From Diabrotica undecimpunctata (lineage: Eukaryota > Arthropoda > Insecta > Coleoptera > Chrysomelidae), in contig NC_092803.1 of the NCBI RefSeq assembly GCF_040954645.1, positions 81,196,263 through 81,260,262 of the forward strand: 64,000 nucleotides of DNA, given 5' to 3'. The notes under the pieces are model-generated. The model was given only the letters and a program-made list of their open reading frames with translations, did no database searches and had not been told where the DNA came from. Numbering within the stretch: position 1 is the stretch's first letter; each line of letters opens with the position of its first letter. Below are positions 1,847 through 55,191 of this stretch, one piece after another. The position numbers were made by a program, and so were the translations under genes.

Positions 1847-2450
1847 GTGGCGTAGTCCAACGTGGAGCCCAGATTTTCAGTAAGATAGTATTCCTTAATT
1901 CATTTGTCTCTTTTTTAAACTGTTTCTAGTTTGTTTGTCTATTTTTGCATATTTTATAGTTATTTAGATCCAGTGTTCTTTGCTACAGTATCTCAGAAAT
2001 ATTGAATAGTGTCTTATATTGCTGTGTTGGTGGTTTTGTTAACTTTAAATTAATAACTAATTGTAAACCTTCATTTAGTATAATATTTTTCATAATTATA
2101 TTGGTTTGACATTTCTGGTTTGATCGGGTTAGTGATACCTGTACATTTGTGAGAAATATTGAATAATTTATTGTATTACTATTTACATTGTTATTTGCCA
2201 ATAGTGGTTTTGTTTAGGTGCGATCACACTATATAATATATATTTTTTTTTTTTTTGGTCAATTATTGCATACTATATATAAAAATAAGTTCAATTTACT
2301 TATTGTCATTTGATCTCTCAAACCAACTTTAAATTATTTTAAATATATTTATATTTAAAGGTATAGGTACACCTTTATTAATTACATTTGGTTAAACACA
2401 TTGTTGATTTTGGTTTGTTGGTGATATTTTTTTTTTCCCTCTCTTTCATC
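1847..2450 (+). other. Leader with primer-binding site
   Basis: One base after the LTR end lies TGGCGTAGTCCAACGTGG (1848-1865). TGG one base from the LTR is the usual start of a tRNA primer-binding site, complementary to a tRNA 3' CCA end. I could not assign the tRNA. The remaining ~590 bases to the gag ATG are AT-rich leader without a convincing ORF. Confidence 0.7.
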
Positions 2451-3863
2451 ATGTGTACCTTTAAGGCTGAGCATTTATTAGTTAAGGAAGTGGATTATGA
2501 GCTGAGGATAAGGGGAATTCCCTTTGAAGAGTCTACCAAGGTTGAGAAAAAACACCAATTATTGCGCGGTGCCTTGAAACAAGAGCAAGGAAATAGGAGC
2601 TTTCGACAAATTTCTTCTGTAGATATTCCTTTTCTGGAACAACAACAGGAGATAAACCAGACGTTGGAGGACCTGGCTCAGAGGATATCCGATTTTAGAG
2701 GGACTGTCCATGATAGCATGTATTCCAGGTTAATTTCTCGTCTTACTCATATCTCTGGTCGTGCACATTTACTATCTTGCTCAGATGAGGAGCAACAAAT
2801 TTTCAAGCGCTCTATTTCCATTAGAATTCTTAGTTTAGAAGGTGAACTTGATTCTCGAGTAAATCCGGCAGCCACTTCCACTCCTATCTCTTCTGTTCAT
2901 GCAGCTAATTCGTTTTCACACCCTAAACCAATTCAGGTACATAAGTGGGGAATTTTGTTTTCTGGTCAAGGTCATCATGATGAAGTCATTACCTTTTTGG
3001 AGAGAGTGGAATGTCTTCGTATTTCAAGAGGTGTGAGTGAGGATGATCTTTTTGCAGCTTCTGTTGAATTATTTACAGGTCCTGCGTTTACTTGGTTTAT
3101 GAACAACCGTCATAGCTTTTCCACTTGGTCTGAGTTGGCTCAGAAATTAAAATCTGATTTTCTGCCTTATTCTTTCCAAGATGATCTCCTAGATGAAATC
3201 AAAAACCGTAAACAAAAGCCAAACGAACCTGTCACTATGTTTATTAACACCATTTTGGGCATGTGTAGTCGACTTGAGACTCCTCTATCCGACTTTGCCA
3301 AAATAAAGATCATTCTTAAGTGTCTGTTGCCTTTTTACCATCAGCAATTAGCTTTAATGGACATTCAGAGTATCGAGGATATCACGGAGAAGTGTAAACG
3401 TTTAGAGGAAACTCTATCTTGGTCTTCTTCTTCTGCAAGGACGTCTCGACCTACTTCTGGTCCTTCATTTAACTTAAGTTTCTCTAGAAATCGTTCTTGG
3501 CAACCCAAAACTCATACACAGAATGTGTCTGTGGTGAATTCGTCTTTGACTTGTTGGAATTGTCGTGAGCCTGGCCATGCATTTTATGAGTGCGTGACAC
3601 CTCGTACACGTGTTTTCTGTCACGGTTGTGGTAGAGACAATACACTCAAACGTAACTGTTTTAAGTGTTCGGGAAACGAGCGGACAGAGGCTCGTCCCCT
3701 GAGCGTTCCTCAGTCTACAACCCCATCAGGGACTACAAACACAACAGTAAACGAAACCACAGGTCCAATACTCCCCAGCACTTCGAAATCACCCACTCAA
3801 GAAAAGAAAAACACTCACCAACCAAAGCACAACAAACAAAAACCAAAGCAAGCAAAAAAGTAA
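2451..3863 (+). CDS. gag: Gag polyprotein of the Gypsy element
   Basis: The product is the structural capsid/nucleocapsid precursor of the retrotransposon particle, 470 aa from the first in-frame ATG at 2451. The frame is open further upstream, but only from a TTG codon. The central region (about residues 185-330) has the retrotransposon gag pattern, including the segments WGILFSGQGHHDEVITFLE and GPAFTWF. Two nucleocapsid zinc knuckles follow: C368-x2-C-x4-H-x4-C, then a second CxxC-type knuckle starting at C390. The C-terminus is rich in Ser, Thr and Lys. The frame is intact to TAA at 3861, and the last codons form a -1 slippery site leading into pol. The gag and pol frames overlap by roughly 200 bases. 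Confidence 0.9.
   Translation: MCTFKAEHLLVKEVDYELRIRGIPFEESTKVEKKHQLLRGALKQEQGNRSFRQISSVDIPFLEQQQEINQTLEDLAQRISDFRGTVHDSMYSRLISRLTHISGRAHLLSCSDEEQQIFKRSISIRILSLEGELDSRVNPAATSTPISSVHAANSFSHPKPIQVHKWGILFSGQGHHDEVITFLERVECLRISRGVSEDDLFAASVELFTGPAFTWFMNNRHSFSTWSELAQKLKSDFLPYSFQDDLLDEIKNRKQKPNEPVTMFINTILGMCSRLETPLSDFAKIKIILKCLLPFYHQQLALMDIQSIEDITEKCKRLEETLSWSSSSARTSRPTSGPSFNLSFSRNRSWQPKTHTQNVSVVNSSLTCWNCREPGHAFYECVTPRTRVFCHGCGRDNTLKRNCFKCSGNERTEARPLSVPQSTTPSGTTNTTVNETTGPILPSTSKSPTQEKKNTHQPKHNKQKPKQAKK
3854..3860 (+). promoter_or_regulatory. -1 ribosomal frameshift site A_AAA_AAG
   Basis: In the gag frame the sequence reads GCA AAA AAG TAA, so the heptamer A AAA AAG is phased exactly as a -1 slippery site (X XXY YYZ) and sits directly before the gag stop. 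Slipping back one base enters the pol frame (gta act gtc...). Gag is in frame 0 and pol in frame -1. No downstream pseudoknot was worked out. Confidence 0.8.
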
Positions 3864-6800
3864 CTGTCAACCACACTGCGGTTAACTCGAGCTGTTTGCT
3901 TGACCTTAGATTATCTCCACCAGTCGTAAGTCATAATTTTAGTAATGAACATAATCAGCACAGGGAAACAGTTCCATTTTCTACACCAGTTTGTAAATTT
4001 GTTGGCAATGATAATATGTCTAAGTTAGTACCATTTTATAAGTTGGATGGCCAATATAATATTTTAGATTTTGATATTAATTCTTTATTAGTCAGAAAAC
4101 ATAATGATAACCGACCTTATCTTGAAATTAAGATATTAGGACATTCTTGTTTGGCTCTATTAGATAGTGGCTCTAACATTTCTTTAATAGGTTCCTATTC
4201 ATTACAATTGTTAGAAAACACTAATATTAATATTATACCTATTTCTTCCCTGCAAGTCTCTACTGCAGATGGTACCATTCAGTCGATCACAGGTAAATTT
4301 GAAACTGAAATTTTAGTTGCAAATATTCGCAAAACTATTACCTTTTATATTATACCTTCCGTGCAAAATTCTATAATTCTTGGCATGGATTTTTTAAATG
4401 CATTTAATAGCACATTAAATTGTTCGGACTTTTCGTTCTCTATTTCCTCCTTTAATTTATCAACTGTAAGTGTTATTCGTGAATTTTCTAGTTTGTCTGG
4501 AATGGAACAAAAACAGTTAGAGGATATTATCTCTAAATTTTCATCTATTTCGTCTAAAGATAAATTAGGCCGTACACATTTAATGTCTCATACTATTGAA
4601 GTGAAAACTTCAACTCCTTTCAGACAGTATCAATATCCCATACCTCAAGCATGGCAAGCAGATTTAGGTAAAGAAATCGATTCAATGCTCTCCTTAAACA
4701 TTATCGAACCTTCTACCTCTTCATATTGTAGTCCTCTGTGGCTTACAAAGAAGAAGGATGGATCATTCAGAATTTGTTTTGATGGTCGTAAATTAAACAG
4801 TATCACATCGAATAGGGACGCTTATCCTATCCCTCGAATAGATGTTATATTAAGCAAACTCCAGAATGCGAAATACATCTCTTCCATTGACTTATCCAAG
4901 GCCTTCTTACAAATTCCTTTGAGTGAAGAGAGTAAGAAATATACTGCTTTCGCTGTTAGTGGTAAAGGTTTATTTCAATTTGTCACGATGCCTTTTGGTC
5001 TAGTTTCAGCTCCTTAGACGATGTGTCGTTTAATGGACTTAGTTATTGGTCCACAACTTGAACCATTTGTATTTTATTATTTAGATGATATTTTAGTTGT
5101 TACTCCTGATTTTACTTCGCATATTGAAATATTAGAGAAGTTATTTTCACGCCTTAAAGAGGCTAATCTCACTGTCAACTTGGATAAATGTAATTTTTGT
5201 CGTCCTAATCTCAAATTCCTGGGATATGTTGTTGATAGTCAAGGTTTGAGGACAGATCCTGACAAGGTAACCGCTATCAAGGACTTCCCCATACCTAAAA
5301 CAACTACTCAGTTACGTAGGATCTTGGGTATGTGTGGGTACTATCGAAGGTTTGTACGTTCTTATTCCACTTTATTATCACCTCTTACTGACCTCCTTAA
5401 GAATAGGAAAAAGGGTCAGACTATTACCTGGAATCCTGAGGCTGATGATGCTTTTCATCGTATTAAAGAAGCTCTTACCAGTGCTCCTGTCATGACTTCT
5501 CCTGATTTCAGGGAACACTTTTACCTCATGACAGATTGTTCTAATACTGCTTCAGGTGGTGTCCTCTTTCAGATGAAAGATGGTTCTGAGCACCCCATAG
5601 CGTACACTAGTAAGAAGCTCAATAAGGCCCAGAAAAATTACTCCACTACTGAGCGGGAACTCCTTGCTATAATTCATGGCTTGGAGGCCTTCAGGTATTA
5701 TTTAGAAGGTCGTAAGTGTACCTTGATCACTGACCATAGTTCGTTGTTGTGGATGCATTCTATGCGTAACCCGTCCCAACGGTTGTCCCGCTGGATTTGT
5801 AAGTTATCAGCGTTTGACTATAACATTGTCCACCGTAAGGCAAATGGTGTTGTAGTAGCTGATGCTTTGTCTCGAACATTTGATGTCAATCTTCTTGACG
5901 TATCCACTTTAGTTCCGGATGCGTGGTACCATAAAATGTTGGAGAATGTTACTCAGAATCCTGGTCAGTACCCTGATTTTAAAGTGGAACATAATATCCT
6001 TTATAAACATGTTGTTAGTCCAATTGAAGCCTTGACTAATATGTCGGATTGGAAAATTGTCGTCCCAACCGCAAATAGGGATGAAATTCTTCGTACTTTT
6101 CATGATAATGTGACATCTGGTCACTTTGGTTCCTTTAAAACATTTAGTAGGATAGCGGAGCTATATTATTGGCCTGGTATGCGCAACTGTATTAAGAAAT
6201 ATATTTCTAGATGCAAAGTTTGCGCTACATGCAAGCCAAGTAATAAGCCACAAGCTGGATTAATGGGTTCTTTTAGGAACATTGACTTCCCATGGCAGAT
6301 GGTATCTATGGATTTAATTGGACCATACCCTCGTAGTTATAAGGGCAATACCTATTGTTTGGTGGTCGTGGATTACTTCACTAAATTTCCATTAGTTTTT
6401 CCTCTTCGTAATGCCACAGTTCCTGCCATTGTGAAATATTTGGAGGAGCAAGTCTTTTTGTTATTTGGTGTTCCCCAAATTGTCTCTTGTGACAATGGTC
6501 CTTAATTTGTAGCTAAGGCTTTTAAAGACCTTCTAACTAAATACAAAGTTCAGAAGATCTTTTATAACGCTGCGTACCATCCGCAAGCTAATCATAGTGA
6601 GCGTGTAAACCGCAGTATTGTTACAGCCCTAAGATCATATACATACCAAGACCACAGAGCTTGGGATCAATATATTCACTCCATAGCTCAAGCCATAAGA
6701 ACTTCTGTCCATGAAGTTACGCAGTGTTCCCCAGCTTATTTAAATTTTGGTCGAAATGTTGCCTTATCTGGTGATTATTTTGGTTTAGTTTCAGGAAATT

Positions 6801-7189
6801 CCACAAATCTACCTCAAATATCAGATAAACTTCATCGTTTAGATGATATACAGACTCTACCTCCAATATTTGCAGACATCAGGAAGAAATTAAAAACTTC
6901 TTACCTTAAGTCACAGGGTCAGTATAACTTGAGGAAAAGAGATTTGCGATTCTTTGTTGGTGATCGGGTATTAAAACGTAATTTTGTTAAGTCTAGTAAA
7001 GGTGATGCTGTTTCTGCCAAATTTTGTCAAAAATACGTCCCATGTATTGTCAGTAAAGTAATATCTCCTTTAATATATGAATTGAAAGATAGTTTGTCCA
7101 ACAAACGTCTTGGTCGATTTCATATAAAGGACTTATTACCAGATAACACTGTCAATGACTTAGACTCTTCATCGTCAGAAGAAGATTAA
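3860..7189 (+). pseudogene. pol: Pol polyprotein of the Gypsy element, two in-frame stops
   Basis: Domains in order: aspartic protease (LLDSGSNISL near 4160; ILGMDFL near 4378); reverse transcriptase (SSIDLSKAFLQIPL near 4885; TMPFGL near 4986; catalytic YLDD near 5080); RNase H (TDCSNT near 5530; RELL near 5657); integrase with HHCC zinc finger (HFGSF...C-x2-C near 6120-6235), catalytic D (DLIGPYP near 6312), second D (DNGP near 6491) and E (SERVNR near 6598); then a C-terminal region ending DSSSSEED at 7186. It uses the -1 frame relative to gag. An in-frame TAG at 5015-5017 lies inside RT, just after the TMPFGL motif, and a TAA at 6503-6505 lies inside the integrase core. No frameshift was seen, so this copy was disabled recently by two point changes. 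Confidence 0.93.
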
Positions 7190-10290: not shown

Positions 10291-13200
10291 TCACTGCCTT
10301 CCCTCGCTCAACCGTTTCCATCTCTCTCTGTTGTTCCATTCTCCATCGTTTAGTCCTCTCTTACTCATGGCGTCGTCTACTTCGTTCCTCCAGGATTTTC
10401 GGGGTCGTCCTCTTTTCCTCCTTCCTATGGGGCTCCATTCGGTTATTCTTTTTATCCATCTGCTGTCGCTAGCTCTTCTTACATGTCCATACCACTTTAG
10501 TCTTTTTTGTTCTATATATGTTAGTATGTCTGTTTCTATTGATGTTCTTTGCTTTATTTCGTCATTACTTCTCCTATCCATTCTTGTTACTCTGCAGCAT
10601 CTTCGCAGGCATTCCATCTCTGTTGCTATTATCTTACTGCTGTTTTTCTTGTTTATGATCCAATTTTCGGCCCCATATGTCATAATACTTCGCACTAATG
10701 TTTTATAAATCTGCGTTTTTGTCTTCATATTTAGGTGTCTATCCCACCATACTGAGTTAAGTTGTCGGATTGCTGTTCTTGTTTGTCCTAATCTTTGTGT
10801 AATTTCTTCCTCTGTTGTTGCCTTTTTCGTGATTATGAACCCCAGGTATTTGAATTTATCCTTTCCTTTGATTGTTACGTTGTCATCAATCTGTAGATCT
10901 TCTATGTCTTCTTCACTTGTAGATAGGTACTCTGTTTTCGCGAGGTTAATATCTAGGCCAGCCTTGGTATATTCTTCTTGTAGTTTCTTCATCATGTAGC
11001 TGAGGTCGTCTTGGTCTTGTGCAATCACTACTTGATCGTCTGCAAAACTTAACGTATATAGGTATTCGTTCCGTACCGGTACTCCCATGCCTTCGCATTT
11101 TCTTTTCCATGTAGTCAAGGCTTTCTCTAAGTATATTTTGAATAGGGTTGGAGATGTGGAACAACCCTGCAGGAGCCCTTTTGTTGTGGTGAAGTCTCCT
11201 ATGATTCTTGTTCCCATTTTAATGGACACTTTATTTTCTTTATACAGAGCTTTTGTAGCTTCTATGAGTTCCGTCTGTATTTCTAATTTGTACATTGCCT
11301 CCCATAGTTCTGACCTTGGTACAGAGTCATACGCCTTTCTCAGATCCACAAATGCCAAGTGTATATCTCTATTTTTTGCTTTTTTCTTTTCCAACAGTTG
11401 TTCCAGTGTGTATATGTGGTCTATGCATGATCTTCCTGCCGTGAAGCCTGCCTGATCCTCCCCGATTTTGCCTTTTATCGCTTGCTCTATCTTTTCTCGC
11501 AGTATCTTCCCATATAATCTTCCTATTGATGATATTACGCTTATTCCTCTGTAGTTTTCGCATCGTTTTCTATCTCCTTTCTTAAATATAGATGTCATAT
11601 ATGCCGCCGTCCATTCCTTTGGGAGCTGTTCTCCATTTATGGCTTTCTGAAATATCCATTGTATCATCCGGTGTAATTTTTTTGATCCGTATTTTATAAG
11701 CTCAGGTGAGATGCCTCCAGGTCCCGGTGCTTTCTTATTTTTGATTGCTTTTATGGCCGTTCTCATTTCCCTATCTGTTATTTCTATTTCTTGTTGTGGG
11801 AATCTGCTTCGTCTTCGCCTGTTTTCTTTTCCAATGAATTGTGGTCTTTGTTCTGTTAATAGTTCCTTATAGTAGTCCTTCCATTCTTTGTCCTGTATAT
11901 TTCCCAATTTAGTTTTTTCTTTTGAGTTTTGTTTCAATCCTCTCAGTACTTTCCATGACTCCGAAGTTCTTGTACCTCCTATATATGTTTCAATATTTAA
12001 GCAGATTCTTTCCCATTCTTCGTTCTTTTGCTGTGTTATTTGTTTTTTCACTTCTCTATCTTTTTCTCTATATTCTTTATAAACTTCATCGTTGTTTGTA
12101 GTCAGCCATTTTCTGTATAGTTGCTTTTTTTCTTCAATTATTCTTTTTGTTGGTTCATTTATTTCATTATAGTGCTGTTTATTTGTTATATGTTCTTTTT
12201 CCCCAAGGGCTTCGAATGCTGCTTGCTTTATACTCGCCTTTATATGCTCGTATATTTCTTCGATGTTGCCGTATCTAAATTCTATTAATTTTTGGTCTAG
12301 ACGTTGTTGGTATAGTTCTCTTATTGATTGTTCTTGGAGTAGTTCTATATTGTATTGTTTTTCTCTTATAGTGTTCAACGGTTCTTCTGTGGAGGGGGTC
12401 TTGTTATGTTTCCAATTAATGCCCATTTTTGCTGTCAGTAGTCTATGGTCCGTTCCACATTCTGCTCCTCTTTTGACTCGCACATCTTTGATCTTTATTG
12501 TGGTATCTTGTTTGATTATTATGTAGTCTATTATCGATTTCAGCTTTCGTGTTTCTTGCGTCCATGTATATTTATGAATATTTTTATGTCTGAAGAATCC
12601 GTTGGTGATTTTTAGGTTGTTTAATTCGCATAATTCAATCAGACGGTCTCCGTTATCGTTTTGTTCATCCTCTCCAAATCTCCCCACTACTTTATCGTTT
12701 TCTTTCCTTCCGGTTCTGCCGTTAAGGTCTCCTGCTATAATTATCTCCACGTTCTTTTTAATTAGCTCTATTTGATTCTGGAGTTGTTCCGTGAAATGTT
12801 CTTTTTCTACTCTCGGAGAATCGTCTGTTGGTGCATATACTCCGAGTATCACTGTCTCTTTACCGTATATGTCTATATGCATTTTAATTATTCTCTCGTT
12901 GATTGGTTCCCATGTTCTAACCCTGTTCTTCCACTTATTTTTGATTAGTATTCCTACTCCTGCCTTTGCTCTACATTCTTTATTAACTCCGCTCCAGCAG
13001 TGGATATGGTCTTCTATTGTTTCCGTTCCATTTCCTTTCTTTTTGGTTTCTGTTGTTACTAGTAAGTCGATGTTGCTTTCTTTAAACTCTTTGATCACTT
13101 CCGTCGCCTTTTTGTTCCATCCTTGTATATTCCATGTTGCACATATGAATGTTCTATCTTTTCTTCGTTTCGATTTTTGGTTGAGCTTTGATAAGACTGG

Positions 13201-13308
13201 GTCTTCCGAACTCTTCGCAACATTGCCCCCCCCGTATCCGATGGGGCTCCCTCTATCAGAGGTGTGGATTTCCACCCGGGGATGTGTTTCCGTATTTGGC
13301 TTTTTCAT
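10291..13308 (-). CDS. RTE endonuclease-reverse transcriptase
   Basis: An uninterrupted 1005-aa ORF from a true ATG. The N-terminal AP-type endonuclease (about residues 53-300) shows WNIQGWN (N60), TTETK (E88), GVYAPTDD, AGDLNGRTG (D194/N196), DYII (D261) and GTDHRLL (D287/H288). It would nick target DNA to prime reverse transcription. The RT (about 510-830) shows KNKKAPGPGGISPELI, NYRGIS, FVDLRKAYDSVP (D655), GLLQGCSTSPTLF, catalytic FADD (755-758) and KYLGFIIT. The C-terminal part has the LKWYGHVRR and RRKRGRPRKSWRNEVDD segments found in insect RTE-like proteins, often labelled craniofacial development protein 2-like. All catalytic residues I can check are present, so this copy may be active. 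RTE is the best clade by motif and 3' end; no tree was built. Confidence 0.93.
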   Translation of the reverse strand: MKKPNTETHPRVEIHTSDRGSPIGYGGGNVAKSSEDPVLSKLNQKSKRRKDRTFICATWNIQGWNKKATEVIKEFKESNIDLLVTTETKKKGNGTETIEDHIHCWSGVNKECRAKAGVGILIKNKWKNRVRTWEPINERIIKMHIDIYGKETVILGVYAPTDDSPRVEKEHFTEQLQNQIELIKKNVEIIIAGDLNGRTGRKENDKVVGRFGEDEQNDNGDRLIELCELNNLKITNGFFRHKNIHKYTWTQETRKLKSIIDYIIIKQDTTIKIKDVRVKRGAECGTDHRLLTAKMGINWKHNKTPSTEEPLNTIREKQYNIELLQEQSIRELYQQRLDQKLIEFRYGNIEEIYEHIKASIKQAAFEALGEKEHITNKQHYNEINEPTKRIIEEKKQLYRKWLTTNNDEVYKEYREKDREVKKQITQQKNEEWERICLNIETYIGGTRTSESWKVLRGLKQNSKEKTKLGNIQDKEWKDYYKELLTEQRPQFIGKENRRRRSRFPQQEIEITDREMRTAIKAIKNKKAPGPGGISPELIKYGSKKLHRMIQWIFQKAINGEQLPKEWTAAYMTSIFKKGDRKRCENYRGISVISSIGRLYGKILREKIEQAIKGKIGEDQAGFTAGRSCIDHIYTLEQLLEKKKAKNRDIHLAFVDLRKAYDSVPRSELWEAMYKLEIQTELIEATKALYKENKVSIKMGTRIIGDFTTTKGLLQGCSTSPTLFKIYLEKALTTWKRKCEGMGVPVRNEYLYTLSFADDQVVIAQDQDDLSYMMKKLQEEYTKAGLDINLAKTEYLSTSEEDIEDLQIDDNVTIKGKDKFKYLGFIITKKATTEEEITQRLGQTRTAIRQLNSVWWDRHLNMKTKTQIYKTLVRSIMTYGAENWIINKKNSSKIIATEMECLRRCCRVTRMDRRSNDEIKQRTSIETDILTYIEQKRLKWYGHVRRASDSRWIKRITEWSPIGRRKRGRPRKSWRNEVDDAMSKRGLNDGEWNNRERWKRLSEGRQ

Positions 13309-15345: not shown

Positions 15346-15711
15346 TAAAATATAAATGCCCAAAAAACCAAATATATGTGTTGTACTACGCCAAGGAACC
15401 AAGCCCTAAAAGCATAATAATTGACGATTTAGAACTGGAAGGGAATCGAACTAGAACCTTCATAGGCTCGCTGTTGACTTAAGATAACAACGTTAGCGAG
15501 GAAATTAAAAGAACAGTAGTACTTGCCTTAAAATATAAATGCCCAAAAAACCAAATATATGTGTTGTACTACGCCAAGGAACCAAGCACCTAAAAGCATA
15601 ATAATTGACGATTTAGAACTGGAAGGGAATCGAACTAGAACCTTCATAGGCTCGCTGTTGACTTAAGATAACAACGTTAGCGAAGGAATTAAAAGAACAG
15701 TAGTACTTGCC
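15346..15711 (-). repeat. Two tandem 183-bp units containing a tRNA-like T-arm
   Basis: Units at 15346-15528 and 15529-15711 are near-identical, with a few one-base changes such as AGCCC versus AGCACC. On the minus strand each contains GGTTCTAGTTCGATTCCC, close to a pol III B box / tRNA T-arm. Upstream of it is a weaker A-box-like region. The repeat begins 23 bp after the LTR end. It could be a tandemly duplicated tRNA-derived SINE or a short satellite. Confidence 0.55.
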
Positions 15712-18549: not shown

Positions 18550-19690
18550 TAATCATGACTGGTTCTGGAGATAGAGTGAGGACTCTAACAGAAGTCTGTA
18601 GTTAATTTAATGGGCAATACCTCAATCACCAACAGATTTCTCAATCAACAATTAGCAAAATTGAATTTGTTTTTTCGATAATTTGGCCTTGTTAAAGATC
18701 TGTTCAGAATTCGTAGAAAATCAATACCTAAAGCCGAAAAATATTATATCCACTAAAGGTGGATAATATTATCCACCAATGAATTTCTGTTAGATTGCTT
18801 AAAAAGGAGAAGTGGCATCCGTACAAAGTACATCTGGTCTAGGACTTGTTTGAAGATGACTTTGATAGAAGAATCAAATAGTTTTTGCAAAACTATTATG
18901 AAACGATGTAATAGAGATCAGAGAAAAATAATATATCCACTAAAGGTGAATAATATTATCCACCAATGAATTTCTGTTAGATTGCTAAAAAAGGAGAAGT
19001 GGCATCCGTACAAAGTACATCTGGTCTAGGACCTGTTAGAAGATGACTTTGATAGAAGAATCAAATAGTTTTTGCAAAACTATTATGAAACGATATAATA
19101 GAGATCAGAGTTTCATAGAAAATGTAGTTTTTTTAGATGAAGCGGCTTTCATGCTTAACGGTTACGTAAACTGCCAGACACATCGATACTGGACAAGTGA
19201 TAATTCACATTGGATGAAAGAATATACGACACAATATCCTAAGAAGGTGAGTCTTTCAGCCGGAAGTTATATTATAGGGCTATATTTTTTTGATAAAAAT
19301 TTAATTTATTCTCTTTATGTGGAATTTGTTTAGGATTATTTGATGCCATAGCTTAATCAGCTATTTCTAAATAGAAATGAGTTCTGGTTCCAACAGTATG
19401 GGGCTCCCTCACACTACGGCGTTGAGGTATGAAATTGTTTAAATTACTTTTTCTCAGGTAGGTGCACAGGAAGAAAAGGATCTATTGAATGGCCACCAAG
19501 GTCTTCGGAGTTCACCAAGTTAACCGCGGATAATGTAAATGAATCGAAGAATCGCATTAGAGTAACATAGGAAAATGCACAAATAACTTATGAAGTCATC
19601 AAAAACGTAAGGAAAGTATTTACTCTCCACCTTTCTAATTGCATCTTTGCTGATGGTCATCAATTTCATTACTCGTTACATTTTGATAAT
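18550..19690 (+). pseudogene. Tc1/mariner-like DDE transposase relic
   Basis: Recognisable pieces in order are RVRTLTEVCS and ISQSTISKIE (N-terminal helix-turn-helix), SVRLLKKEKWHPYKVHLV, DDFDRRI, VVFLDEAAFMLNGYVN (first catalytic D), RYWTSDNSHWMKE, YGAPSHYG (second D replaced) and a tail ending in RKVF..L..C. This is the insect family whose intact members read FSDEATF...QQDGAPPHY...RSPDLTPLDF. Many stops and frameshifts are present, and a 187-bp tandem duplication lies inside the gene. It ends at the Harbinger-type MITE at 19701. Confidence 0.75.
18745..19110 (+). repeat. 187-bp tandem duplication within the transposase relic
   Basis: TATATCCACTAAAGGT recurs at 18745 and 18932, and GAGATCAGAG at 18914 and 19101, a constant 187-bp offset. 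The copies differ by a few point changes and one-base indels. The duplication therefore predates part of the decay. Confidence 0.85.
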
Positions 19691-40064: not shown

Positions 40065-41795
40065 TTAGAATCCCTGTTTGAAAGGATTACCTCCAGTGGA
40101 TTGCACTTGGGGCCTAAACGGATTTGCTGTCTCTGGCTGTTGGGGTAACACTCTTCCTTGAGGACGAGGAGGGGGCTGTTGCTGGAACTGCGTTTCTTGG
40201 TAAGGCTCTTCCTGTTGCTGGTAGCCTTGCTGTTGGTAGCCTTGTTGCTGATACCCTTGTTGCTGGTAACCTTGTTGCTGGTATCCTTGTTGTTGGTAAC
40301 CTTGTTGTTGATAGCTTGCACTGAAATTCGTTTCTTGTTGTTTGTATTCAAGATGGTTTTGGACTTCGCCACTGATGGGTTTTTGGTCTTGCATTGTGTA
40401 TGTCTGATACTCTTTGTTAGGAGGATCTTGCATTAGGATGTTTGCTTCATTTTCAAAAGGTTTAAAGTCGTAAATATGCTTAAGATACACTAGCACTGGG
40501 GCATAAAGAAGATTGCTAAAAGCTATTAGTACATTAAGGGCTGTAAACCCTATAGCTTCTACTACACCACCTGCGATAATAGGCCCTACTGCGTATGCTA
40601 GAGAATACGAAATGTCTGCTATGGCGTATATGCTGCCGTACACCGAAACGTATCGAACGTCCACCAGGTAACCGAGAGTAGGGAGGAGTGCTGTGTCGAT
40701 TAAGGCGATGCCAAAGCATATGATGCATATAGGGACCATTAGAAAGATGTAAGAGTCTGCAAATGGAATTATAAAGCAGGATAAGCCTTCCAGTGCTAAT
40801 CCTCCGGCGGCCATCAGCCATTGGTATTGAGGATATTTCTTTGCCATCTTGACGGTAATAATAACTCCGAATACGTGGGGAAAGAACGCCGGTAGCCAAA
40901 CGATGCCGACTTTCCAGTTTTCCGTGGTTAAATTGTCTTCCATCCAAAGACTTATGGTAGGTTCTAGGAATGCCAAAGCTACGTTTGACATCATGAGGGC
41001 TCCAGCGCATACCGCTATGTATTTGTCCATAAAAAGCCTCCAGATAGGTACGCCGGGCGGTTTTGCCATTTGAGCTTCTTTGATTTGGGTTTTTAAAGGT
41101 TTCATAACCAGAAGTAGCATAAATCCGTCTATGAGGGAAACGAAAGCCAAGATCAGGAATGGTACTTCCTTCCCGGCGAACTGGTAAAGAGCTCCCCCGA
41201 ACGGAGGCGCTACGAGGCAGCCAAAACTGATGAAAGCCAGCGCGATTCCGAGAGCTTTCGATCGTTCGTTCTCTTCTGTGAATCGATCGGCGATCATGGC
41301 GAGCCCTGAGGTGTCTGCGAACGCCGAACCGACCCCCTGGAGACTTCTGGCGAAGAACAGGAGACCGTAGCTCCGGCCACAGGCGAACACTGCTGTCGAT
41401 AGAAACATGATCGTCAACCCTATCATCATGGGAATGTCGTAGCCTATGCGGTCTATGAGTGCTCCGGAGAATGGGTTTACCATGAGCTGGACGATGGCCT
41501 TGGAGGCGAATAGGATGCCGGTAGCCTGGTCCTGGCCATGGTGGTCGTGCTTGTATGGCGTACCTGGTGGAAGAGACACGTTTCCCGGAACCGGATAATC
41601 TTCGTAGGCTCCTATATACCGTAGGTAGTCCGGAATAATGGGCACTATAACCATGTAAAGCATGTTGTCTAACAGCAGAGCTATTGACACTATTACTAAC
41701 ACTAGTTTTCTTTGGGTCCGGGGTTCCTGGAGCTTCGTCCAGACGACTTCTTTCAGTTCGGAGAACTCCATGTTGATTATCGGTATCGTCGTCAT
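40065..41795 (-). CDS. VAChT: Vesicular acetylcholine transporter (SLC18A3 family)
   Basis: A 576-aa proton/acetylcholine antiporter that loads acetylcholine into synaptic vesicles of cholinergic neurons. It is a major-facilitator fold with about 12 membrane segments. TM1 (about 31-57) contains LLLDNMLYMVIVPIIPDYL with D43. The luminal loop (58-90) has an N-glycosylation site at N72. RIGYD at 117-120 is the loop 2/3 motif, and FARSLQGVGSAFAD (148-161) and PPFGGALYQ are SLC18 signatures. D394 in TM10 (AIADISYSLAYAVGP) lies where the transport-essential Asp of vertebrate VAChT sits. The cytosolic tail (about 440-576) is Gln-rich with seven YQQQ repeats. The ATG is in a CCACCATGA context, and the CDS is one exon with an acceptor 98 bp upstream. 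It shares strand and locus with the ChAT exon at 50.9 kb, as in the conserved cholinergic gene locus. Confidence 0.97.
   Translation of the reverse strand: MTTIPIINMEFSELKEVVWTKLQEPRTQRKLVLVIVSIALLLDNMLYMVIVPIIPDYLRYIGAYEDYPVPGNVSLPPGTPYKHDHHGQDQATGILFASKAIVQLMVNPFSGALIDRIGYDIPMMIGLTIMFLSTAVFACGRSYGLLFFARSLQGVGSAFADTSGLAMIADRFTEENERSKALGIALAFISFGCLVAPPFGGALYQFAGKEVPFLILAFVSLIDGFMLLLVMKPLKTQIKEAQMAKPPGVPIWRLFMDKYIAVCAGALMMSNVALAFLEPTISLWMEDNLTTENWKVGIVWLPAFFPHVFGVIITVKMAKKYPQYQWLMAAGGLALEGLSCFIIPFADSYIFLMVPICIICFGIALIDTALLPTLGYLVDVRYVSVYGSIYAIADISYSLAYAVGPIIAGGVVEAIGFTALNVLIAFSNLLYAPVLVYLKHIYDFKPFENEANILMQDPPNKEYQTYTMQDQKPISGEVQNHLEYKQQETNFSASYQQQGYQQQGYQQQGYQQQGYQQQGYQQQGYQQQEEPYQETQFQQQPPPRPQGRVLPQQPETANPFRPQVQSTGGNPFKQGF
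40212..40313 (-). repeat. 15-bp coding repeat, seven YQQQ(G) units
   Basis: It encodes residues 495-528 of VAChT: six YQQQG units and a terminal YQQQE. Synonymous CAA/CAG and GGT/GGC/GGA/GGG changes differ between units, so it is not a fresh slippage product. Such an array in the cytosolic tail could vary in length between alleles. Confidence 0.95.
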
Positions 41796-44685: not shown

Positions 44686-45380
44686 CGGTACGGACGATAT
44701 ACGATGGAAGACGTTAGAAGAAAGGATACCAGCACGATGGAAGGAAAACATAATAGTGCCCATCCACAAAAAACGGGACAAAACAAAATGCGCGAATTAT
44801 AGAGGAATTTCACTCCTAAACACGGCATATAAAACCCTCTCAAACATCATTCTTAGTAGACTAATCCCTTATGCTGAAAATGTCCTAGGCGAATATCAAG
44901 CCGGTTTTAGGGCAAACAGATCAACTATTCACGCTGAGACAACTTTTAGAAAATGGATGGGAGTATAACAGACCCATACACATAGACTTTCGACAGGCAT
45001 ATGATAGCGTAGAAAGAAGCCAGATATGGAATGCCATGGCGGAGTTCTCAGTACCAAAGAAACTCATTCGGATGACCAAAGTCTGTATGGAGGGTGGAAT
45101 ATCTAAAGTACGTGTAAATAATAAACTGTCTGGCAGCTTTGAAATCAACAGTGGACTCAAACAGGGTGATGCGGTATCTCCACTACTTTTTAACCTTGTA
45201 TTAGAGAAAACCATAAGGTCGGCCGAAATAAAAACAGAATTGCTATCGGTTCAAGGTACCAAGCTATTACTCGCATATGCAGATGACATAGATCTCGTTG
45301 GAAACTCCATCCTATCCACGAAAGACATCTTCAACAAGGTGGAAGGAGCAACAAGTGAAGTAGGGCTTATTGTTCAATAA
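44686..45380 (+). pseudogene. LINE RT fragment (different family)
   Basis: Reads IPARWKENIIVPIHKKRDKT, CANYRGISLLNTAYKTLSNI, EYQAGFRANRST, a one-base frameshift near 44920, then LRQLLENGWEYNRPIHIDFR, QAYDSVERSQIW, GLKQGDAVSPLLFNLVLEK and the catalytic YADDIDLVG (near 45278). RT palm motifs are otherwise well kept. It ends in frame at TAA 45378. The endonuclease and C-terminus are absent. Its orientation is opposite to the fragment on its left and their sequences are not related. Confidence 0.8.
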
Positions 45381-52385: not shown

Positions 52386-53928
52386 TATAGTCCATTTCCA
52401 TCATATTGATAGCACATTATGTATGCAAATCCCTAAACTGTTGATACGGGTGACTCAATGAAAAATAGATATTTGTCAACAAGTTTACAGAAGTATATAG
52501 GAAAACAATTTTAAATTAAGTATGACCACCAGGTATAAAGGTTGAAGCAGAAGAGAATACAATAGTTTTGAGGGTTACTAATCCCTAAATAAAGTTGCCA
52601 GTGTCGGAGTGATGGAGATTAACAGGTACTAATGAATTTGCAAGAAATGTAAGATGTTTATTTTATTGGTTATATATAAAATAATTTGTGGCCGTAACAG
52701 GGGCCGATTTGTAAAAAAATGAATATTATTTTAATCAAATTCCATTTCAGATTCACTGCTTTCTTCAGAATCTAAGGAATCTTCAACTCCAATGTTAATT
52801 ATTACCGGTTCCAGCATTGCATCAGTCATATTATCCAAATTCCACATTTTATTTTCTTCCTTGTGAGCATGACTAACAGCATTTTTCAATTTTCTGGAGT
52901 TACTTTTGATAAGGAATGTTCTAATAATTGTTGTAAGTCTTCTAATTTAAAAGTTTTGTTGTTGTGTCCGACTTCGCCCTTTACTTGAGACCATATATTT
53001 TCTATCGGATTTAGATCACAGTGGTATGGGGTAAACGTAAAATAATTACATCACGGTTTAATGCCATTTCATCAATTATATATTTTTTATAAGCTGCTTT
53101 ATATTGCCTTACAATAGGTAATAATTCCTTTTTTGTCGAAATCTCCTTGTACTCAATTGCGTGTTTATCCAACCATTCGATTATCTCTCCTTTTTTCCAT
53201 GCCGTTGTTGGCAATTTTTCTGCTAGTCTTGAATGGTAACTAGCATTATCCATGACTATGACAGAATTTTTTGGAATTAAATCCAACATTTGCTCAAAAT
53301 ATTCTTCAAAAACGACAGCAGTCATTTCCTCGTGGTAATCTTTGGTTGATTTTGAGGCAAAACTTATAATCCACCATTGACAAAACCGTATTCGTTTCCA
53401 ATATGGGTTATTATGAGTCTGCGTCCTTTTTCAACGGGAATATTGTTTATTCCAGTAGATACACCTTCGATAAATGCCTGATGGGAACTTTTCACATTTG
53501 TATCAACCCATAGATATGGTACAGTATGACCTTCATTTAGCCAAGTCTCGTCCAAATAAAAAATTTTTTTCTTCTTCTCGGTACTTTTTAATAGTTCTTA
53601 GATAATCTCGTCTCCAACATACAATGTAATCTTTTTTAATTAAAACGGATTTATTTCTATTATTTTGCCAACGAAATCCCATCTCTCCCAATAGTCCTCA
53701 TAATTTCTTGTTGCCTATAATTGGTAACTCTTCGTTTTCTCTAATTATTGTTTGTGGACACTTATTTTACAGAAGATTTTTTAAAATATAATGAATTGTT
53801 GACGGCATCTTAAAATATTAATTTTTTTTATTTATTTCAAAACAAGTATAGGGTGACGCCTATGGTTTTTTGACCTGGTAAGGATTTGCATACATAATGT
53901 GGTATCAATATGATGGAAAAGGACTATA
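52386..53928 (-). mobile_element. Mariner-superfamily DNA transposon with TA TSD
   Basis: The body at 52388-53926 is 1539 bp. TIRs of 45 bp start TAGTCCATTTCCATCATATT on the left and TAGTCCTTTTCCATCATATT on the right, and both end in TATGCAAATCC, differing at about three positions. TA is duplicated at 52386-52387 and 53927-53928. The transposase runs on the minus strand inside it. Confidence 0.9.
52731..53808 (-). pseudogene. DDE transposase of the 52.4-53.9 kb transposon
   Basis: From ATG at 53808 the minus strand reads MPSTIHYILKN, then MGFRWQNNRNKS, YIVCWRRDYLRTIKKY, MDETWLNEGHTVPYLWVD (first catalytic D), LIITHIGNEYGFVNGGL, NSVIVMDNASYHSR (second D) and, after a frameshift, PYHCDLNPIENIW (E). 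It ends in an acidic tail, SEESSESEMEFD, at TAA 52731. The gap between second D and E is about 80 residues, longer than in classical Tc1 or mariner. At least four frame disruptions are present (near 53570, 53350, 53030 and 52895), so it is dead but recently so. Confidence 0.8.
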
Positions 53929-54293
53929 ACTAGGTGAATAGTGTTACATTATTACCACCTTAAATACATTACATTCATTTGTGGTTTTCTAAAAGTTTTC
54001 TGTTATTGGCTTGCGTCACGTAGTTATTCATAATCTTCCTCTCCCCCTTCATTATTGGGTTCATCGATTTCCTCATTATGATATGGCTAAGATCCAATGT
54101 TAGTCGTATCACTCTGAATAAACCTCATTAATGCCAGATATACATTCATGTTACAATTATGACCTTCACAGGCATCGCTGAGAATGGTTACATGCTTTTT
54201 ATTGTTTGTATTAAGTCTCAAATGCTTTATTAGACATAAAGAATTGTATGAAAAAGACAGTCAAGATTTGATTTTACGTACAAAGCGTCTATG

Positions 54294-54341
54294 TATCTGT
54301 TTATACGTATTTCGCCTTAATAAGGCTCATCAGAACAGCTA
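54294..54341 (-). ncRNA. Hammerhead ribozyme, copy 1
   Basis: Same core as copy 2: CTGATGA, hairpin GCCTT-ATT-AAGGC, GAAA, then TACGTAT-A. Helix I pairs TAGCTGTT with AACAGATA. One mismatch (G against A) arises because the left strand has G where copy 2 has A. Cleavage is predicted between minus-strand positions 54302 and 54301. The core is intact, so activity may be reduced rather than lost. Confidence 0.8.
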
Positions 54342-54690
54342 TTCATGCGTTCTCAACGTGAAAAATAAATCTTTCCTGTCTTTAAGAAGCAACACTAAAA
54401 TGGCTTCGAAACGAACGCAATAGCCCCATCTGATGATAAATCCGTAAAATAGTTTCGAATCACAATTCAGATTTCTGCCTTAATCTGAGCCTTCTAAAAA
54501 TTGCAAGGCAAAGCAGACGTTGATAAAGATGTTAATAGAGACATGGGAAATCTAAAATTTGCATTTCACGACATGTCTCCTCAAATAAGCAGAAATCATT
54601 AGCGAATTGGTTTCTTGTACTCATACAGAGTAGATCCGAATAAAATGAAAAAGACAGTCAAGATTTGATTTCACGTACAAAGCGTCTATG

Positions 54691-54738
54691 TATCTGTTTA
54701 TACGTATTTCGCCTTAATAAGGCTCATCAGAACAGATA
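54691..54738 (-). ncRNA. Hammerhead ribozyme, copy 2
   Basis: On the minus strand: helix I 5' strand TATCTGTT; core CTGATGA; helix II GCCTT-ATT-AAGGC; GAA; helix III palindrome ATACGTAT; cleavage residue A17; helix I 3' strand AACAGATA, complementary to the first strand over all 8 bases. All invariant hammerhead nucleotides are present. It is a type I layout. The very short, self-complementary helix III is like that of PLE and retrozyme hammerheads, which often act as dimers. The predicted cut is after the AUA triplet, between 54699 and 54698. Confidence 0.88.
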
Positions 54739-55191
54739 TTCATAGGCGTTCTCAACGTGAAAAATAAATCTTTCCTGTCTTTAAAGAATTGTATAAATAA
54801 TTGTGTTGTGGCCTCTCTCGGCTGTGGTTTTATTCCACATATCAAAATATCCAGAATATTTCACAAAATCATGTACACCAAAATTGTAGCAGTACTGGTT
54901 TCGTTTGTAGTAGTCATCGAAAACTGTTAATACTAGGGAGGATAAAGCTTTTTGCAAATCCATACTACAAGCATAACTTTCTTGATTATTTGTGGAAAAT
55001 TTTTCATCATCTTTTATGCAATCTATCTAATTCAGTTTTCCTTGGTTGAAGCTTATAAAACTTTTTAAGTATTTTCTTATCTTCGTGGCTCAAATCAGGG
55101 TTAGATATTTAGTTTAGTTAGTTTAATTTTTATGAATGTGTTGCCTGTGTAAGTCCATTTCAAATGGGTAAAAAGAAATAAAATAAGACTA

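Follow-up and report, generated by a model that had tools for sequence, protein, structure and literature searches.

A probable non-LTR retrozyme with two type I hammerhead motifs in a Diabrotica beetle

The window analysed here, that is, the whole stretch of 64 kb from a Diabrotica beetle, contains a short non-coding insertion, and the question arises what kind of element it is and by which route it was inserted. The most probable answer, to which we assign a probability of roughly 0.85, is that the insertion is a non-autonomous non-LTR retrozyme, which may have been moved by the reverse transcriptase of another element from a self-cleaved RNA of about 397 nt or its uncut precursor. In the initial annotation, the locus had been described as a retrozyme-like element; this identity is well supported by the anatomy of the insertion and its likeness to published metazoan retrozymes. 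The self-cleavage, the circle of 397 nt and the borrowed enzyme that were proposed along with it are predictions, and the copy of the repeat at 54250-54384 is weakened.

The insertion comprises 532 bp of non-coding sequence (54250-54781) and is flanked by a target-site duplication (TSD), TAAAGAATTGTAT, at 54237-54249 and 54782-54794 (unstranded). As had been claimed before, the TSD is 13 bp long; its two copies are identical at 13 of 13 positions, and its ends are uncertain by a few bases. Among 60,000 random pairs of points placed 532 bp apart within the 64-kb window, with the same jitter of the ends as for the real TSD, 4 reached 13 nt, and the duplication is not due to chance. Two direct repeats of 135 nt flank a non-coding core of 262 bp (54385-54646, minus strand), which gives the layout rod-core-rod and agrees with the 532-bp insertion of two repeats of ~135 bp and a core of ~260 bp proposed initially. 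The repeats match over 106 nt at 95% and over 39 nt at 100% identity, with a spacing of 397 and 399. In the sense of the RNA, which corresponds to the minus strand, copy 1 (54250-54384) is the 3' copy, a rod with a weakened hammerhead, and copy 2 (54647-54781) is the 5' copy, a rod with a fully paired helix I. The predicted self-cleaved and circularised unit (54302-54698, minus strand) is 397 nt long and has a GC content of 35.5%; the 532 nt of the locus amount to 1.34 such units and contain two hammerheads. The repeats start with GAAAAAG and end with CTGTCTT, and TG...CA ends, which are the rule for LTRs, are absent. The longest stop-to-stop stretch of the element comprises 57 codons, and no open reading frame for a reverse transcriptase or an endonuclease is found within 54250-54781. 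A BLASTN search of the element against the 64-kb window did not reveal any other copy. The minus strand of the core carries a B-box-like polymerase III string, GATTCGAAAC, which is followed by runs of T4-T5; an A-box was not found on that strand.

In each repeat, the minus strand contains CTGATGA, GCCTT-ATT-AAGGC, GAAA, the palindrome ATACGTAT and an A, followed by helix I, and the catalytic cores of the two copies are identical. The numbering and the core consensus follow the convention for hammerhead ribozymes. Both hammerheads belong to type I, because helix I is the open helix. Copy 2 carries a complete type I motif (54691-54738, minus strand), which consists of helix I (UAUCUGUU/AACAGAUA), CUGAUGA, helix II (GCCUU-AUU-AAGGC), GAA, helix III (AU-ACGU-AU) and A17, after which the cut is predicted. 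The motif of copy 1 (54294-54341, minus strand) has an intact core. Helix I comprises 8 bp in copy 2, and 5 bp, one mismatch and 2 bp in copy 1; both the perfect and the mismatched helix had been noticed in the initial annotation, as had the spacing of the cut sites. Cleavage is predicted 3' of 54699 in copy 2 and 3' of 54302 in copy 1, and the two cuts are indeed 397 nt apart. Inside one copy, helix III is limited to 2 bp closed by an ACGU loop, and an 8-bp helix III is possible only between two copies. Against the retrozyme reading, the base at position H17 is an A, and the 2-nt bulge of helix I together with the 3-nt loop II suggests that there is no clear loop-loop contact.

The frequency of such motifs by chance was estimated using first-order Markov sequences of 1620 Mb, which were searched on both strands. 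A strict descriptor, requiring at least 4 bp in helix II, at least 2 in helix III and at least 6 in helix I, was found at 7 places in the simulated sequence, corresponding to 0.00028 per 64 kb, compared to one place in the window (copy 2). With a looser descriptor, which requires at least 4 bp in helix I, 53 places were found (0.0021 per 64 kb) compared to two in the window; copies 1 and 2 are of common descent and their hammerheads count as one event. The hammerhead motif is far above chance, and the full core in both copies bears out the minus-strand hammerhead that had been seen in each repeat. No match at the gathering score was obtained with Rfam in the whole window. Below this score, the type III hammerhead model yielded 22.1 and 19.5 bits, with the cut-off at 48.5 (E-values of 0.091 and 0.5 for 1.5 kb), and the RAGATH-1 hammerhead model overlapped copy 2 with 19.4 bits (E-value of 3); two of the six below-threshold rows lie outside the element. 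These scores below the gathering cut-off count against the retrozyme reading. Three exact or gapped motif patterns gave no match in a collection of viral contigs. Two bacterial contigs, which matched one gapped pattern in a collection of genome contigs, were rejected; helix II was seen in neither of them in the sequence inspected by eye, and both look like chance matches.

Metazoan retrozymes have been described as elements of 170 to 400 nt with low GC content, type I hammerheads and TSDs of more than 4 bp, and insects are named among their hosts (PMC7229834). The locus shows this combination of features, namely a type I motif with a conserved core, a 397-nt unit with 35.5% GC, no coding capacity and a TSD longer than 4 bp. 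It further shares with the non-LTR retrozymes of Acropora, Mytilus and Ambystoma a helix III that consists of 2 bp closed by a tetraloop, which is the form reported for invertebrates, as well as an RNA that is predicted to be highly self-paired (PMC7229834). However, those elements occur as dimers to long arrays, whereas 1.34 units are present here, and the Diabrotica element differs from them in that the repeat is the hammerhead rod, in its own sequence and in the A17 at the cut (PMC7229834). LINE-like TSDs of 15 bp are mentioned for repeats of Nematostella in the available part of PMC4918200. An insect repeat with a hammerhead is also known from Dolichopoda cave crickets; excerpts of PMC2837043 discuss single and double forms of this pDo500 hammerhead, which differs from the retrozyme-like element in that it belongs to a satellite DNA. 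In the double form presented there, stem III lies within one strand while stems I and II join two strands, whereas helices III and I would join the copies of the Diabrotica element.

The repeats themselves are predicted to fold into rods. With the hammerhead enforced, the copy-2 rod has 48 pairs, one of which is G-U; a 2-nt AA bulge follows helix I, and pairing with interruptions then extends over almost the whole repeat, with base 3 and base 135 as the outermost paired positions in the aligned length of 138 nt. According to the computed z-scores of -6.5 (copy 2, minus strand), -9.3 (copy 2, plus strand) and -5.0 (copy 1, minus strand), the rod is more stable than its composition would suggest. 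On the plus strand, the rod likewise forms 48 pairs, including 4 G-U, and reaches -47.9 kcal/mol compared to -45.2 kcal/mol for the minus strand of copy 2; this slightly better folding of the plus strand argues against a constraint that acts purely on the minus-strand RNA. Because of the plus-strand hairpin, the plus strand at 54647-54784 weakly resembles a microRNA precursor model (21.8 bits, E-value of 0.21, below threshold). The minimum-energy fold of a single rod is not a hammerhead, but a structure that is better by 3.8 kcal/mol for copy 2 and by 7.3 kcal/mol for copy 1. The fold of the 397-nt circle has a z-score of -3.0, and the hammerhead would not be formed in its minimum fold, because the first five bases of the 3' strand of helix I are unpaired.

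The position of the rod is closely related to the ends of the insertion. A frame of 135 nt, fixed to the length of the repeat and thus probing position alone, was moved in steps of 3 nt round the 397-nt unit containing the copy-2 rod. The energies of the 133 frames have a mean of -26.7 kcal/mol and a standard deviation of 5.7 kcal/mol, and the two most stable frames (-46.6 and -46.1 kcal/mol) lie at most 2 nt from the direct repeat. Judged by these predicted folds, the stretch that was copied twice coincides with a rod within about 3 nt, and both ends of the insertion lie at the rod base, at one locus. Since the insertion retains both predicted cut sites, the template was probably either a circle, of which 1.34 turns were read, or a transcript that had not been cut; a linear template cut at both sites could not give both rods whole. 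Circularisation is therefore not the sole route that explains the insertion, and in the available part of PMC11167929 an Anolis Penelope-like element is reported to insert in vitro without the need for hammerhead cleavage.

How the RNA might cleave itself was assessed by comparing single and double hammerheads. As 48-nt stretches, the single hammerheads reach -6.7 kcal/mol (copy 2) and -2.0 kcal/mol (copy 1), and the single motif is weak as judged by standard energies. In a double hammerhead, the palindromes AUACGUAU of the two copies pair with each other, thereby forming a shared 8-bp helix III. For the 48-nt stretches, this structure is computed at -24.6 kcal/mol for copy 2 with copy 1 (compared to -8.7 for two single hammerheads and -18.0 when each copy adopts its own best fold), at -29.3 kcal/mol for two copies of copy 2 (-13.4 and -21.0, respectively) and at -19.9 kcal/mol for two copies of copy 1. 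With 61-nt stretches, the double hammerhead reaches -30.2 compared to -23.5 kcal/mol for the separate best folds (copy 2 with copy 1), and -39.1 compared to -30.8 kcal/mol (copy 2 with copy 2). When two copies are folded together, however, the optimum is a cruciform-like duplex, in which helix II strands from different copies pair with each other and the hammerhead core is absent; it beats the double hammerhead by 0.8 to 2.5 kcal/mol, and by 4.2 kcal/mol for copy 1 with copy 1. In these calculations, which omit tertiary contacts, the double hammerhead is more stable than two separate copies and the non-hammerhead duplex is slightly better still. In amphibian retrozymes with a weak helix III, cleavage is reported to be poor for monomers and efficient for dimers, whereas most hammerheads of invertebrate retrozymes cleave well as monomers (PMC7229834). 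A need for dimers is disfavoured here, because good cleavage by single motifs is reported for invertebrate hammerheads with such a helix III. It is therefore a tentative and rather unlikely idea that RNA structure sets the ends of the element and the ribozyme counts its copies, in that the reverse transcriptase would start and stop at the rod base, two-copy precursors would be cut well as double hammerheads and the one-copy circle would be spared. If true, this would explain how the circles of animal retrozymes escape their own ribozyme, a question left open in PMC7229834.

For the retrozyme as a whole, the following life cycle can be proposed. In a minus-sense transcript with two or more copies, self-cleavage would take place after the A17 of each copy. 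The cutting form would be either the single hammerhead or a double hammerhead joined via the palindromic strands of helix III, the latter being the one to expect from the computed energies. Cleavage would free a 397-nt RNA, which may be closed into a circle by a host ligase. The reverse transcriptase of another element, a LINE or a Penelope-like element, would then use the circle or the uncut precursor as a template for target-primed synthesis, and insertion into an AT-rich site would create the 13-bp TSD.

Several other origins have to be weighed against this reading. An unlikely one is a non-autonomous derivative of a Penelope-like element, in which a Penelope-like enzyme copied a pseudo-LTR, a core and a second pseudo-LTR from a linear RNA that had not been cut, and the ribozymes are inherited baggage. 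Direct repeats at both ends, with a type I hammerhead in each, are shared with Penelope-like pseudo-LTRs, for which excerpts of PMC11167929 and PMC7761336 propose dimeric cleavage; partial tandem copies of such elements and the cleavage-independent insertion of the Anolis element are also described in the available part of PMC11167929, and the excerpts of a review suggest that retrozymes arose by reduction of Penelope-like elements (PMC11722881). Retention of both cut sites and ends at the rod base would fit as well. However, Penelope-like hammerheads are described in the literature as usually lacking helix III, whereas 2 bp and a tetraloop are present here, and neither a frame for reverse transcriptase and endonuclease nor any other coding remnant is left in the element. 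In addition, Pfam detected no Penelope-like protein in 25 distinct frames of the window, out of 257 frames of at least 55 codons, and the one short reverse transcriptase fragment of the window that was compared with solved structures has its nearest counterparts in R2 and L1 enzymes. A Penelope-like element proper is ruled out by the lack of an open reading frame in the element.

Each repeat is also a long imperfect palindrome, so that the whole element has inverted ends, and copy 2 folds better on the plus strand, as would be expected from a hairpin (MITE-like) DNA transposon or from an insertion with inverted repeats that carries a hammerhead by chance. This origin is very improbable, since the motif would arise by chance about 0.0003 times per window, the repeats are direct and not only inverted, and 13 bp exceed the TSDs of DNA transposons, which are usually shorter. 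Even less credible is a miniature LTR retrotransposon (TRIM) or a plant-type LTR retrozyme: the element does have a short non-coding core between direct terminal repeats, but this origin is already contradicted by the TSD of 13 instead of 4 bp, the repeat ends, which are not TG...CA, and the type I instead of type III topology. Plant LTR retrozymes resemble the element in that two hammerheads in terminal repeats bound a circular RNA, which is a prediction here; they have type III hammerheads, 4-bp TSDs, a PBS and a PPT and a size of 600 to 1000 nt according to the available parts of PMC4918200 and PMC6155905. A different matter is whether the insertion is a real but dead retrozyme, neither transcribed nor cleaving today, which is compatible with a retrozyme origin and only slightly less probable than its opposite. 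Two substitutions and one 2-nt deletion distinguish copy 1 from copy 2, and all three disrupt pairs that copy 2 keeps; the simplest reading is that copy 1 decayed after insertion, and at minimum energy it no longer folds as a hammerhead rod. On the other hand, helix I of copy 2 is fully paired, the TSD is intact and both cores are identical.

The putative retrozyme lies about 12.5 kb upstream of an open frame for the vesicular acetylcholine transporter VAChT (40068-41795, minus strand), and its hammerhead strand is the sense strand of this gene. The closest relative of the VAChT frame is found in Diabrotica virgifera virgifera, with 98% identity along the full query, which marks the host as a Diabrotica beetle or a species very close to it. 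A Pfam search of 10 minus-strand frames for coding exons of choline acetyltransferase (ChAT) found none. The window also contains a Gypsy-type LTR retrotransposon (2388-6502, plus strand), whose gag, aspartic protease, reverse transcriptase, RNase H and integrase domains are distributed over three overlapping or adjoining frames, with a further open frame nearby (6506-7189). A LINE (10291-13308, minus strand) encodes endonuclease/exonuclease/phosphatase and reverse transcriptase domains in one frame of 1005 codons, and no match of the element inside it was among the BLASTN matches listed. Two tandem duplications of two copies each (15346-15711 and 18736-19110) have units of 184 and 187 bp with 98% and 96% matches; they contain no hammerhead core in the whole-window scan, no Rfam family up to an E-value of 2 and no clear TSD. 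A reverse transcriptase fragment (44889-45377, plus strand), the one of R2/L1 type mentioned above, and a possible DDE_3-type transposase fragment (53014-53430, minus strand; E-value of 1.6e-05, below the Pfam cut-off) are also present, the latter about 0.8 kb from the retrozyme-like element.

Elements of this kind are already known and insects have been named as their hosts; the addition made here is a family known from a single locus. No retrozyme of Coleoptera was reported in the open-licence literature searched, and no beetle retrozyme was among the matches listed, by titles and the starts of abstracts, for hammerheads with Diabrotica, beetle satellite DNA or Tribolium. In the available part of a retrozyme paper, Diabrotica is mentioned only for an RNA-interference product, and the words 'hammerhead' and 'Penelope' are absent from two Diabrotica genome papers (PMC9840275, PMC8982398). 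Taken together, a beetle family with sharp boundaries would join the animal elements that make circular RNA by self-cleavage, and the element may provide a compact system for testing how dimers cleave and how the endpoints of reverse transcription are chosen.
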